Assembly: GCF_029581275.1 (NCBI RefSeq)
Contig: NZ_CP120742.1
Span: forward strand, 1,028,501-1,092,500
From: Micromonospora sp. WMMD1155
Lineage (GTDB): Bacteria; Actinomycetota; Actinomycetes; Mycobacteriales; Micromonosporaceae
DNA: 64,000 nucleotides
Direction: 5' to 3'
The notes beneath the pieces were generated by a model, which was given only the letters and a program-made list of their open reading frames with translations, was not told where the DNA came from and ran no database searches. Below are positions 41,044 through 50,952 of this stretch, one piece after another. Position numbers and translations under genes: made by a program. The stretch's first letter is position 1. Each line of letters begins with the position of its first letter.

Positions 41044-41979
41044 TCAGCCGAACCAGGTCATCGCCTGGCCGTGGCCTCTGGTCCAGGCCAACGGCCGCCC
41101 GTCCAGGGCGAGGACGTTGTGCAGCGCGTCGGTCGGCGGGTCGGGCAACCCGTCGTGCCCCAGCACCTCCGGCGCCTCGTTCGCGATCCAGTGGCCGGGC
41201 AGCTCACCGACCAGCCGGACGAACGCGTCCCGCCGCGGTGGGGGCACCTGGTACAGCACCGACGTGTGGAAGACCACGAGCGTCGCGTCGGCCGGCGCGC
41301 GGGCCGCCAGCGCCGGCAGGTCGTCCACCAGATCACCACGGACCAGCAGCGGCGGATCGGCCGCGGCGACCGCCGCCGCGGCGCGCAGCCGGGCCCGCCG
41401 GTGCGCGTGCTCCGGCCAGATCAACGCGTCAAGCCAGGACACGTCGCCAGGGTCGGTCACGTCGAGCGGGTTCAGGTCGAGACCGGCCCGCCACACCACC
41501 CGGGGTACGCCTGCCGGCGGCACCAACCCTTCGGCCGCGCACTCCAGGACCGGCTCACCGGTGCCGACCTGGTGCTCCCCGTAGCGGTATGCGTACCGGT
41601 CGGGGTAGAGGCAGAGCCCGGCTGACGCGCCGACCTCCAGCAGGGCGAGGGGCTGTGGCAGCGCGGCGAGCACCGGCAGCAGCACCGCGCACCGGCCGGC
41701 CTCGTTCGTCTGAGTCGCCCGGGTGAGCAGCTCCGCCTTGACGGCGGGCCAGTGCGTCAGCACGTAGTCGTGGAACGCGGCCGGGTCGCCGACCGGCCCG
41801 CCCAGCCAGCGGACGACGCTGAACAACAGGTTCGGCTGCCGCTTGGCCGGCGGGACCTCGTCCAGCAGATCGAGCAGGGACTCATCGTGGGCGACGGCAG
41901 CCGACAGGCGCTCGTAGGTGGGCGACACCCCGCGCGCCTCACGGCTGCCGAACTCGACGTACGCCTCGGCGGTCGTCAT
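41044..41979 (-). CDS. DUF2332 family protein
   Basis: 311 aa from ATG 41979. Family features: LLFSVVRWLGG near residue 65, NEAGRCAVLLPVLAALPQPL with a SAM-like loop LLEVGASAGLCLYPDRYAY and VVFHTSVLYQVPP. The fold looks like a Rossmann methyltransferase relative, without assigned chemistry. It converges with the MerR gene by 5 bases. Confidence 0.88.
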   Translation of the reverse strand: MTTAEAYVEFGSREARGVSPTYERLSAAVAHDESLLDLLDEVPPAKRQPNLLFSVVRWLGGPVGDPAAFHDYVLTHWPAVKAELLTRATQTNEAGRCAVLLPVLAALPQPLALLEVGASAGLCLYPDRYAYRYGEHQVGTGEPVLECAAEGLVPPAGVPRVVWRAGLDLNPLDVTDPGDVSWLDALIWPEHAHRRARLRAAAAVAAADPPLLVRGDLVDDLPALAARAPADATLVVFHTSVLYQVPPPRRDAFVRLVGELPGHWIANEAPEVLGHDGLPDPPTDALHNVLALDGRPLAWTRGHGQAMTWFG

Positions 41980-42117
41980 GCGGTCATCGTCGCAGCCCAC
42001 TCCTCGGTATTTCAGCCCCCGTACCCGTGGGTTGGCTCACCCGCCTTCTAGAGTGCTGCGGCGGTCGGACCCTTGAGCAGCAGCTCAGCCGGCCTGGGCA
42101 ACGGGGAGGGACGTGTC

Positions 42118-44788: not shown

Positions 44789-44956
44789 TCATTGGCGCGG
44801 CTTCTTGCGCAGGGAGATCTCCTCCAGGTGCTGGAGCTGGTGCTGCCGGACCATTTCGTCCCAGACCTCCTGGTCGTAGTCCGGATCCGGCGGGATCCAC
44901 TTGTGCGAGTTGTCGCTGTAGTGGAACCGCTCGTCGCCCGGCCGGATCAGGCTCAC
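44789..44956 (-). CDS. Small protein, fourth gene of the overlapping micro-operon
   Basis: 55 aa from GTG 44956, overlapping the previous stop by 4 bases (GTGA). Very polar: FHYSDNSHKWIPPDPDYDQE then EVWDEMVRQHQLQHLEEISL with a basic end. The second half looks like an amphipathic helix. No Cys, unlike the three preceding proteins. No family recognised. Confidence 0.55.
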   Translation of the reverse strand: MSLIRPGDERFHYSDNSHKWIPPDPDYDQEVWDEMVRQHQLQHLEEISLRKKPRQ

Positions 44957-45171
44957 CGGACCCAGCCCAGGAAGCGTCGGTGCAGCAGCCCGGCGGGCAC
45001 CCAGGTCAGGTCCTCGGCAGCCCAGACCAGGTAGGACCCCATGTAGAGGGCCAACGACACAGGTGTGCCCTCGAACTCGGCGCGCAGTTCGGTGCGCCGG
45101 GTCGGGCAGGGCCAGGGCGCGTCGCAGCCGCCGCAGGTCCACACCGGTAGGACCGGGCCGTGGGTGGTCAC
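44953..45171 (-). CDS. Small Cys-containing protein, third gene of the micro-operon
   Basis: 72 aa from GTG 45171, sharing GTGA with the previous stop. It starts VTTHGPVLPVWTCGGCDAPW with CGGC plus PCP, a possible zinc knuckle, followed by ALYMGSYLVWAAEDLTWVP and a basic end. No family recognised. Confidence 0.6.
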   Translation of the reverse strand: MTTHGPVLPVWTCGGCDAPWPCPTRRTELRAEFEGTPVSLALYMGSYLVWAAEDLTWVPAGLLHRRFLGWVR

Positions 45172-45347
45172 GGCAGACCATCCAGGAAACGCCGGGTGGT
45201 GGCCCGGGCATGCCAGCGGGTGGCCCATTCGGCCTGATAGCAGGGGTACGGGGACAGTCGCGCCCACCACCAGCGACAGCCAGCGCAGAGCCCGTCGACG
45301 CCGGGCAGGTGCACGGACAAGATTCGTCCGATCTGATCCTCGGTCAC
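45168..45347 (-). CDS. Small Cys-containing protein, second gene of the micro-operon
   Basis: 59 aa from GTG 45347 (GGAGCAGGA just upstream), overlapping the first gene's stop by GTGA. It contains LCAGCRWWWARLSPYPCYQA, so three Cys, aromatic residues and a basic C-terminus (RATTRRFLDGLP). No family recognised. Confidence 0.6.
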   Translation of the reverse strand: MTEDQIGRILSVHLPGVDGLCAGCRWWWARLSPYPCYQAEWATRWHARATTRRFLDGLP

Positions 45348-45532
45348 TCCTGCTCCTCCCCCGGCCAGTGGCCTCGCCGGATCGGGATGCGGTGCCTGGC
45401 CTGGCACGGCAGGTCGGCCCCACATCGGCAGACCCACCGCCACCGCTGCCACGACCAGACCGGCCGATGGCGCCGAGCCAGAGTCAGCGCCACCGCCAGC
45501 AGGTAGTCGTCGTACGGCACATGCGATCCCAT
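45344..45532 (-). CDS. Small Cys-containing protein, first gene of the micro-operon
   Basis: 62 aa from ATG 45532. Tryptophan-rich middle (VWSWQRWRWVCRCGADLPCQ) with three Cys, then basic residues and an acidic end. The short distance to the plus-strand start at 45653 makes the 120 bases between a shared divergent promoter. No family recognised. Confidence 0.6.
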   Translation of the reverse strand: MGSHVPYDDYLLAVALTLARRHRPVWSWQRWRWVCRCGADLPCQARHRIPIRRGHWPGEEQE

Positions 45533-45544
45533 GAGACCCCAAAC

Positions 45545-45597
45545 TTGGACTCCTATTTTGGAAGTACAACCACATTTAAGTTGGACTCCTATTTTGG
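45545..45597. promoter_or_regulatory. Duplicated 17-bp element in the divergent promoter
   Basis: TTGGACTCCTATTTTGG occurs twice, at 45545-45561 and 45581-45597, 36 bases apart start to start, with different flanks. The repeat is far AT-richer than its surroundings and contains -35-like TTGGAC and -10-like TATTTT. It lies directly in front of the micro-operon and could be the binding site of the neighbouring HTH protein. Confidence 0.65.
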
Positions 45598-45652: not shown

Positions 45653-46513
45653 GTGGTGAACCCGACGATCCAGCGACGACGCCTCGGCCTTGCCCTCAAA
45701 CGCGCCCGTGAAGGTGCAGGCAAGACGCAGGACGAGGCGGCCGCCGTCATCGACGCGGCAGCAAGCAAGATCAGCAGAGTCGAGCTTGGACAGTCGGGCA
45801 TCAAGCTCACCGACCTGAACCTGCTACTCGACCTCTATGGGGTCCGGGGCGATGACGCCGAGCCGCTACGCGACCTTGCACGAGCAGGGCGACAACGCGG
45901 GCGCTGGAGCACATACCGAAACGCCGTGCCGGACTGGTTCCGCCAGTACCTGGACCTCGAAGGTGACGCGTCAGAGATCCGCTGGTACCAGCCAGAGGTC
46001 ATCCCAGGAGTCCTTCAGGTCGAGCCCTACATCCGCGCCATGAACGCGATCGCCCACCCACGCCCGCCCACCGATGAGGTCGACCGGCAGGTTGCCGTGC
46101 GCTTGGAACGGCAGTCGATTCTGCGGCAGGACGACGGGCCTGACCTGAGCTTCATCCTCAGCGAGTCGGCGCTGCGCCGAAGCATCGGTGACGCGACGAC
46201 GATGCGCAATCAGCTCCTGCACCTGGCAGAGGTGAGCGAGCAGCCCAACGTCACCCTTCAAGTGTTTCCGTTCAACGCACAGACCTATGAGACGGCATCG
46301 TTCAGCTTCATCATCCTGCGCTTCGGGGACGACGCGGCATCGGACGTGATCTACGTCGAGACGTTCACCGACGCCGACTACCTTGACCGGCCAGACGCCG
46401 TACGGGCCTACACTCGACTGTGGGACCGACTCCGGGCAGCCGCTCTCGGGCCGGTAGAGTCGCGCAAGCTCATCCTGAGGATGGCGGACGACGTGGAGCG
46501 GCAACAGACCTGA
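45653..46513 (+). CDS. XRE-family HTH regulator with DUF5753 domain
   Basis: 286 aa from GTG 45653; CATAAT at 45641-45646 ends 6 bases before it, a typical leaderless layout. HTH_31/XRE domain at about 8-62 (LGLALKRAREGAGKTQDEAA), then DUF5753 (WYQPEVIPGVLQVEPYIRAM through VFPFNAQTYETASFSFIILR). These proteins, related to Streptomyces WhiJ, pair with a DUF397 partner and control development or islands. The DUF397 gene follows after 10 bases. A fragment of a second copy lies at 47100. Confidence 0.92.
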   Translation: MVNPTIQRRRLGLALKRAREGAGKTQDEAAAVIDAAASKISRVELGQSGIKLTDLNLLLDLYGVRGDDAEPLRDLARAGRQRGRWSTYRNAVPDWFRQYLDLEGDASEIRWYQPEVIPGVLQVEPYIRAMNAIAHPRPPTDEVDRQVAVRLERQSILRQDDGPDLSFILSESALRRSIGDATTMRNQLLHLAEVSEQPNVTLQVFPFNAQTYETASFSFIILRFGDDAASDVIYVETFTDADYLDRPDAVRAYTRLWDRLRAAALGPVESRKLILRMADDVERQQT

Positions 46514-46523
46514 GAGAGTGATC

Positions 46524-46706
46524 ATGGAGACTTCGGATCGCCTGGTCTGGCGCAAGTCGAGCTACAGCGACAACAACGGCGGCGCTTGTGTCGAGGTTGC
46601 CGAGCTGGACACGAGCATCGTGGTGCGCGACAGCAAGGACCCCAATGGGTCGACCCTTCGCTTCACGAAAGGCGCATGGACGGGGTTCGTCCGGAACATC
46701 CGGTAG
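46524..46706 (+). CDS. DUF397 small protein
   Basis: 60 aa: LVWRKSSYSDNNGGACVEVA, then VVRDSKDPNGSTLRF and WTGFVRNIR, the DUF397 pattern (W-x-KSSYS-x-G-xx-CVEVA). ATG 46524 or GTG 46518. DUF397 proteins pair with and probably modulate the DUF5753-type regulator encoded just upstream. Confidence 0.93.
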   Translation: METSDRLVWRKSSYSDNNGGACVEVAELDTSIVVRDSKDPNGSTLRFTKGAWTGFVRNIR

Positions 46707-46857: not shown

Positions 46858-47067
46858 GTGAAGCGACCGCGCTTGTACGGGCCTGGCGAGTTGGCCGCCC
46901 TGTTCAACGTGTCGCGGCAGAGGGTACTCCAGATCACCCGCCGGCCCGGCTTTCCCGAGCCGATGGCCCGCCTGATCGGGACGACTATCTGGGACGCCGA
47001 CGAGGTAGACGAGTGGGCCAGGCACAACCGCCCACCACGCCCAACTGAAGGCGACAAAGACCACTGA
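46858..47067 (+). CDS. Small AlpA-like helix-turn-helix protein
   Basis: 69 aa from GTG 46858. YGPGELAALFNVSRQRVLQI is a winged-helix MerR/AlpA-type HTH, followed by GFPEPMARLIGTTIWDADEV, as in excisionase-like proteins. Such proteins guide integrases, but there is no integrase nearby. The preceding 150 bases (46707-46857) show nothing else. Confidence 0.75.
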   Translation: MKRPRLYGPGELAALFNVSRQRVLQITRRPGFPEPMARLIGTTIWDADEVDEWARHNRPPRPTEGDKDH

Positions 47068-47099: not shown

Positions 47100-47243
47100 C
47101 CGGTCCGTCAGTACCTGGACCTCGAAGGTGACGCGTCGAAGATCCGCTGGTATCAGCCAGAGGCCGTAAGTCGAGCTACAGCGACAACAGCTGTGGCGCA
47201 TGCGTCGAGGCAGCCAAAACTGGTACGAGCATTGCGGTGCACG
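47100..47243 (+). pseudogene. Chimeric scar of a second DUF5753-DUF397 gene pair
   Basis: 47105-47163 is nearly identical to 45942-46000 inside the DUF5753 gene (QYLDLEGDAS, RWYQPE). At about 47164 it jumps to sequence matching 46552-46630 in the DUF397 gene (KSSYSDN..C..CVEAA). It is therefore a decayed, internally deleted copy of the pair with about 480 bases lost at the join. Confidence 0.8.
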
Positions 47244-48015: not shown

Positions 48016-50886
<2,871 letters not shown>

Positions 50887-50952
50887 GCCGTCGCCCCCCT
50901 CGTCTGCGCGGTCACCCACCGCGCGTCCCAATCGCTTGAAAACAGTGAAGAT

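Follow-up and report, generated by a model that had tools for sequence, protein, structure and literature searches.

The window, a stretch of 64,000 nucleotides from the genome of Micromonospora sp. WMMD1155, carries four very small genes on its minus strand, namely: P1 (45344-45532, 62 aa), which begins with ATG, and P2 (45168-45347, 59 aa), P3 (44953-45171, 72 aa) and P4 (44789-44956, 55 aa), which all begin with GTG. At each of the three junctions, the start of one gene overlaps the stop of the preceding one in the letters GTGA. The four overlapping frames had been listed in a preliminary description of this DNA, and all are present where they were placed. A reading frame of 255 aa follows directly behind P4 (43948-44715, minus strand). 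It has no Pfam or NCBIfam match and is probably not a member of the module, since a tblastn comparison with 17 other loci, from 15 other genomes, gave no relative of this frame.

Divergent to P1 lies a gene for a WhiJ-like regulator (XRE-A; 45653-46513, plus strand; 286 aa when counted from the first of two GTG codons), which combines an XRE helix-turn-helix domain (PF13560, 43 bits) with DUF5753 (PF19054, 195.5 bits). Directly downstream of it is a gene for a BldB-like DUF397 protein (46518-46706, plus strand; 62 aa; PF04149, 81.9 bits), so that the regulator and partner recognized earlier are both borne out by family models. Further along the plus strand, a gene for a 69-aa HTH_17-like protein (46858-47067) falls below the Pfam cut-off; its orthologues directly adjoin P1 in the type C loci described below. 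Behind it are pieces of a second XRE and DUF397 copy (47106-47239, plus strand; tblastn identities of 86% over 21 aa and 72% over 25 aa, with a DUF397 match below cut-off), pointing to local duplication and decay of an XRE-DUF5753/DUF397 copy.

The promoter region shared by P1 and the regulator is 120 bp long, measured from the P1 start codon (45532) to the first possible start of the regulator (45653). It contains two operator-like direct repeats of 20 bp (45542-45561 and 45578-45597) that are identical at 19 of 20 positions and lie 36 bp apart from start to start. Both are on the P1-proximal side, some 10-65 bp ahead of the P1 start codon, with about 10 bp between P1 and the end of the nearer repeat. 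The duplicated 17-bp element reported previously is the core of this longer repeat; in the whole genome it matches exactly at these two places only and at one more place with 3 mismatches, and the same pattern read backwards, used as a control, gave 3 places at up to 3 mismatches. A promoter and terminator scan and a search of Rfam gave 0 matches each.

The conserved residues of the small proteins follow a common plan. H22, C35, C37 and C43 of P1 (C35-x-C37-x5-C43) are kept in every row of a 49-row alignment, as are H4, C13, C16 and C22 of P3 (C13-x2-C16-x5-C22, followed by three predicted helices) in 39 rows. In P2 (C21-x2-C24-x11-C36; 23 rows), C21 and C36 are invariant, and H13 and C24 occur in 90% of the rows or more. 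Each of the three proteins thus has one conserved histidine and three conserved cysteines, which form a putative metal site, and each probably binds metal. The earlier statement that three of the proteins have CxxC-type cysteines holds for P2 and P3 and has to be amended for P1, which has CxC. P4 is devoid of cysteine and has the invariant residues F11-H12-Y13, H18 and W20 (H18-x-W20). A further coupled family found in related modules, P5, has mostly 84-135 aa and is unrelated to P4. P1, P2 and P3 are not demonstrable paralogues (hhalign probability 0.6-15%), and without profile kinship their shared His/Cys plan is a resemblance only, which may be convergent.

None of P1-P4 has a match reaching the cut-off in Pfam or NCBIfam, and the same is true of P5, so that five small protein families are added without such a match. 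P1-P4 have no match in PADLOC and match PHROGs only at E 0.1 or above; no known toxin or antitoxin family is found among them by Pfam and NCBIfam at cut-off or by PADLOC. In Pfam, P3 meets the zinc finger of DNA polymerase epsilon at E 0.086 with 13.5 bits, the cut-off being 27; we do not take this as kinship. Searches of PDB sequences with the profiles A3, A4 and A5 gave a best E of 0.28 (DNA polymerase epsilon subunit), 2.2 and no match, respectively. The best of five structural models of P3 reaches a pLDDT of 85.8 (the other four 64-72; pTM 0.73; residues 1-8 under 50) and shows a cysteine-bearing loop followed by three helices; it matches no PDB structure at E up to 10 and has viral matches only at E above 5. 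The model of P1 is poor (pLDDT 58.6). WhiB-like proteins are small actinobacterial proteins with four conserved cysteines that hold an iron-sulfur cluster, and the cysteines of P3, spaced CxxC-x5-C, are reminiscent of their motif. However, P1, P2 and P3 have three cysteines and one histidine where WhiB-like proteins have four cysteines, and they have no Pfam match at cut-off; WhiB kinship is therefore unsupported.

In order to see how widely the four genes occur, we searched 61 genomes, of which 37 are from the same genus (the window's genome included) and 24 from other families of the order. P1 is found in 38 of them, namely in all 37 of the genus and, by a weak match (E 7e-4), in G053. P3 is found in 37/61, all 37 being of the genus and having 6 to 21 matches each. 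P2 and P4, which were searched in this sample only, are found in 25 genomes (24/37 of the genus plus a weak match in G046 with E 3e-4 and two internal stops) and in 23 genomes (23/37 of the genus and none outside it), respectively. Both weak matches lie outside the family. Among 200 genomes of the family, P1 occurs in 54, covering 11 of 44 genera and 35 of the 38 genomes listed for the genus itself, and in a profile search of 296 genomes of the class P3 and P5 each occur in 3, all of the same genus. The best 80 of 184 confirmed loci belong to Micromonospora, Salinispora, Verrucosispora and 'Micromonosporaceae bacterium'. In these searches, clear matches appeared in the Micromonosporaceae only.

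The four genes are under purifying selection. Relative to the window's genes, dN/dS is 0.07-0.59 and mostly 0.1-0.4 for all four, with maxima of 0.59 (P1), 0.49 (P2), 0.39 (P3) and 0.54 (P4), as calculated from 22 comparisons each for P1 and P3, 19 for P2 and 16 for P4, in which two genomes are counted twice. Short frames opposite a regulator in high-GC DNA could be spurious or decaying, and the length of P1-P4, the absence of family matches at cut-off and of PADLOC matches, and PHROGs values of E 0.1 or above would fit such an origin. It is nonetheless rejected, its likelihood being practically nil: conservation throughout the genus, the fixed order and overlaps described below and the dN/dS values show that P1-P4 are real genes, and neither an absence outside this strain nor a high Ka/Ks ratio, either of which would have marked them as spurious, is observed. 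Among the literature matches listed, there was no Ribo-seq study of Micromonospora.

The related modules were taken from 80 regions around P1 matches and from the best 80 of the 184 confirmed loci, two genome sets that overlap; with identical sequences removed, 147 multi-gene modules remain. The most frequent forms are P1-P2-P3 (44), P1-P2-P3-P4 (27), P1-P3-P4 (24), P1-P5 (14), P1-P3-P5 (13) and P1-P3 (9), along with rarer ones. Gene order is P1-(P2)-P3-(P4 or P5), with P1 first wherever it is found except in two loci with an extra P3 ahead of it (L223 and L226); the only other break in order is the P1-P3-P2b arrangement of L241. P4 and P5 never occur in one module among those compared, P5 taking the position of P4. 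The start codon lies at -4 in 274 of 296 junctions (GTGA or ATGA, and two TTGA), where the in-frame start nearest to -4 was scored and a start at exactly -4, which requires the matching frame and a TGA stop preceded by A, G or T, is estimated to arise by chance about once in 5. Homologues in the same order and with 4-nt overlaps are found in all of these 147 different modules, which goes beyond chance. Such conserved coupling suggests that the products are made in set proportions, and together with co-conservation it leads us to infer that they act together. P2 and P4 are missing from many modules, including some at the chromosomal site discussed below, so the four genes are not an obligate set.

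Some arrangements depart from this scheme. In L284 and L288, a P5 and P3 pair without P1 is divergent to an XRE-DUF5753/DUF397 pair, and in L296 P3 forms the end of a 154-aa reading frame whose preceding part is different. The P3 matches near position 4300 in L282, L285, L287, L290 and L292 are examples of its many more distant paralogues, of about 80 aa. Several of these stand alone between what seem to be the same neighbours, and P3 may therefore also work outside the operon.

The gene nearest to P1 on its upstream side falls into one of six clusters in 138 of 164 modules with identical sequences kept, and in 120 of 144 with identical upstream DNA removed. The clusters are GntR (49), XRE-TPR of about 400 aa on the same strand (28), XRE-DUF5753 (26), HTH_17-like of about 70 aa (15), another XRE of 362 aa (12) and XRE-TPR of 441 aa (8). 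These are single-linkage BLAST clusters of which one representative each was checked in Pfam, the HTH_17-like and 362-aa XRE representatives falling below the cut-offs. Four of the six are XRE kinds, with one HTH type in common. In the other 26 modules, a different upstream gene was called in 20 and none in 6, and as the gene finder (codon log-odds) misses short genes, regulators may be undercounted. Of 512 called genes lying farther than 2.5 kb from a module, used as a control, 1 matches these clusters, a figure that counts homologues of the six clusters rather than every HTH gene. Regulator and P1 are separated by a narrow range of distances in the 362-aa XRE class (255-260 bp) and in the HTH_17-like class (80-138 bp), and by a wide one in the other classes. 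Many GntR-class promoters have their own repeated elements, spaced by about 111, 86 or 118 bp. CCCAGCTTGGCGGC, CCCTCGGTTGGC and similar repeats recur at fixed spacing in the gap between GntR and P1 (for example 111-112 in L124, L156 and L183; 86 in L172 and L191; 118 in L136) and are possibly GntR operators that differ by subtype.

This constant adjacency to regulators could mean that the small proteins are themselves co-regulators which bind the neighbouring regulator, as DUF397 proteins are thought to do, forming a closed switch without a separate output. A direct contact between the small DUF397 partner and WhiJ has indeed been proposed, as stated in passages of a review (PMC4255298). Against this, the same families occur with GntR, several XRE kinds and HTH_17-like regulators, and one shared binding interface for so many kinds is unlikely. 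On the P1+P3 tree, regulator class has to change 14 times and module composition 11 times, a weak comparison because the tree is poorly resolved (no resolution at 38 of its 67 inner branches; 70 of the 78 rows kept after removal of duplicates, 59 of them labelled). We consider the co-regulator role quite improbable.

The exchange of regulators can be followed at one chromosomal site. The window's module lies between what we take, by recognition of the sequence and not by family search, to be genes for ribonucleotide reductase (48016-50931) and a DUF2332-like protein (41044-42000). A tblastn comparison covered 18 loci, which represent 16 different genomes with the window's own included. The flanking genes are present on both sides in 14 of the 16 genomes and on one side in L161 (a contig end) and L201; in L205, an FAD-dependent gene stands in on the DUF2332 side. 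Three regulator types occupy the site, namely: type A, XRE-A with DUF397, in the window, L146 and L201 (the XRE proteins of the latter two being 86% and 94% identical to that of the window); type B, with XRE-B, 40-42% identical to XRE-A, in L143, L161, L203, L205, L207, L208 and L209; and type C, with the HTH_17-like protein, in L157, L160, L162, L206, L214 and L216 (L216 matching over 26 aa only).

A separate motif precedes P1 in each type: CCAAAAYAGGAGTCCAA in 3/3 of type A, AAAATGCGCRCGCAAAAT in 7/7 of type B and TTGTCACTTRCAGATTGACAA in 5/6 of type C, being absent in L216. Because the motifs were defined from the sequences that were later scored, weight is to be placed on the clean partition and not on the match itself. 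In the other 128 P1 upstream regions, the three motifs do not occur at up to 3, 3 and 4 mismatches, respectively. P1 and P3 are present in all 16 genomes, P2 in 13 (missing in L157, L160 and L206) and P4 in 15 (missing in L206); the three modules without P2 are all of type C, whether by chance or through a possible link between regulator type and gene content. Regulator and operator-like motif thus form three matched types that replace one another at a single site where P1 and P3 are kept.

The types are interleaved on the trees. The P1-P4 tree of the 16 genomes has 7 changes of type. The reductase-gene tree, which includes 12 of the 16 (the other 4 having less than 1.5 kb of the gene), has 5, and a count by hand on its starred branches gives at least 4; some forks are unresolved. 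In the latter tree, the clade of L143, L146 and L207 holds types A and B, and all three types occur together in another clade that is well supported. The window keeps an HTH_17-like gene behind its XRE-DUF397 pair, followed by the relics at 47106-47239, and in L162 a DUF397 gene persists beside the HTH_17-like gene with no XRE match. Both arrangements look like intermediates of an exchange.

The preliminary description had named no known system of this form. As it stands this is not supported, since the layout matches the iosA-whiJ9-bldB9 locus of Streptomyces venezuelae (PMC10294661, in the passages available). The window's locus shares with it and with the abaA-whiJ-bldB clusters an XRE-DUF5753 regulator, a DUF397 partner and an adjoining output gene, as well as intergenic direct repeats and several paralogous loci per genome. 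According to the same passages, WhiJ9 binds direct repeats and is required for activation of iosA, its site preceding the iosA start by 113 bp; iosA rises about 750-fold when BldB is lost; colonies that overexpress iosA are white and sporulation-deficient; and BldB and BldB9 hetero-oligomerise. whiJ clusters are discussed as possible developmental brakes in the portions of the review at hand (PMC4255298). In contrast, the output of the iosA type is one protein of 15 kDa (IosA) or an AbaA paralogue, whereas here there are as many as four coupled proteins, which measure 55-72 aa and have His/Cys sites. As P1-P4 have no Pfam or NCBIfam match at cut-off, family models reveal no kinship with AbaA. 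Exchange for GntR, XRE-TPR or HTH_17-like regulators, a feature of the modules described here, is not mentioned for iosA-whiJ9-bldB9 in the available passages of PMC10294661. We found no description of the small-protein module in the open-licence literature on DUF397/DUF5753, whiJ/bldB/abaA/iosA and Micromonospora small proteins, as represented mainly by titles, abstract openings and passages. The locus is thus a variant of the WhiJ-BldB-type locus, and its apparently new features are the families of small proteins and the swapping of the regulators that precede them.

The same pattern recurs within the window's genome, which has 29 DUF397 matches, one of them below cut-off. Not counting one tandem copy and the 47.2-kb relic, there are 27 loci. 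P1, P3 or P5 lies within 2.5 kb of 12 of these 27 (the window's own included), in all 12 cases divergently; random placement gives 0.4 on expectation and a maximum of 6 in 20,000 trials. One P5 match among the 12 contains a stop. In this genome, P1-P5 are thus often found where a WhiJ-BldB-type locus has its output gene. Most mycelial actinomycetes have two or three WhiJ paralogues by the account given in parts of the review (PMC4255298). The available parts of other reports give 20 copies of the XRE-DUF397 operon in Salinispora tropica, which like Micromonospora belongs to the Micromonosporaceae (PMC2701414), and a median of 19 bldB paralogues in genomes containing bldB (PMC10294661), and in view of these two figures 27 DUF397 loci are unexceptional.

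XRE-DUF397 pairs have also been proposed to be type II toxin-antitoxin systems with DUF397 as the toxin (Makarova et al. 2009, PMC2701414). The regulator and DUF397 pair is the same here, but P1-P5 are not mentioned in the accessible sections of that proposal. The operon could be a toxin-antitoxin-like or abortive unit, in which the regulator, with or without DUF397, restrains harmful small proteins P1-P4 or P5. That small genes stand beside many kinds of HTH regulator, in multiple copies and within a restricted lineage, would agree with such a role, and two P3 relatives match a YgiT-type finger model, albeit weakly and below cut-off (E 0.02 and 0.07). On the other hand, overexpression of 14 DUF397 proteins in S. 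coelicolor had no clear negative effect on viability, as stated in the available text of PMC10364602. Searches of 72,556 plasmid and 50,697 phage records gave no match to P1 or P3, and P1 has no confirmed relative in viral contigs, on which grounds an operon of mobile elements is rejected. A module kept at one chromosomal site in 16 genomes, with up to four coupled genes that are all under purifying selection and without a PADLOC match for P1-P4, also argues against a toxin-antitoxin function, which we regard as unlikely.

Taken together, the best explanation is that P1-P4 form one coupled operon that is the output of interchangeable adjacent regulators, to which we assign a probability of about 0.68. 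P1-P4 would be coupled in translation, with termination-reinitiation setting the proportions of the products. As the window's locus has the layout of a whiJ-type locus in which P1-P4 replace iosA or abaA, XRE-A is proposed to act on the repeats and, in this way, on P1-P4: by binding both repeats ahead of P1 it would set transcription, probably together with the BldB-like DUF397 protein as partner or modulator. The repeats are about 10-65 bp from the P1 start, compared to 113 bp for the WhiJ9 site, so that the sign of regulation may be repression. The operon is largely kept where the DNA-binding switch is swapped, which suggests a reusable output module for several signals, and elsewhere the same families would serve GntR, XRE-TPR, other XRE and HTH_17-like proteins. 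The products of P1-P4 probably form one assembly in set proportion. By analogy with AbaA and IosA of Streptomyces, this assembly, once switched on, would most likely hold back development or alter transcription. An effect as a brake on development or secondary metabolism is the weakest step, and on its own we consider the developmental brake doubtful.

A more far-reaching and tentative proposal, against which we judge the odds to lie, is that P1-P5 constitute a family-specific kit of tiny metal-binding subunits, which would be used in variable sets with a fixed order of translation to make a common effector complex and would be plugged into many sensors by in-place exchange of whole regulator-plus-operator units. 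If true, this kit would be a signalling module with conserved output and swapped input, the reverse of the usual case of a kept regulator with changing targets. P1-P5 also provide a concrete candidate output for 12 of 27 WhiJ/BldB-type loci in one genome outside Streptomyces, and the three regulator-motif types in front of one conserved operon in 16 genomes amount to a natural experiment on the rule by which regulator and operator are matched.

Two minor observations concern the surroundings of other modules. Frames downstream of the modules in L157 and L275 and upstream of that in L216 resemble genes for a Phd-type antitoxin and a PIN-type toxin. In L240, the divergent neighbour upstream of P1 resembles, by eye, a gene for an ECF-type sigma factor.
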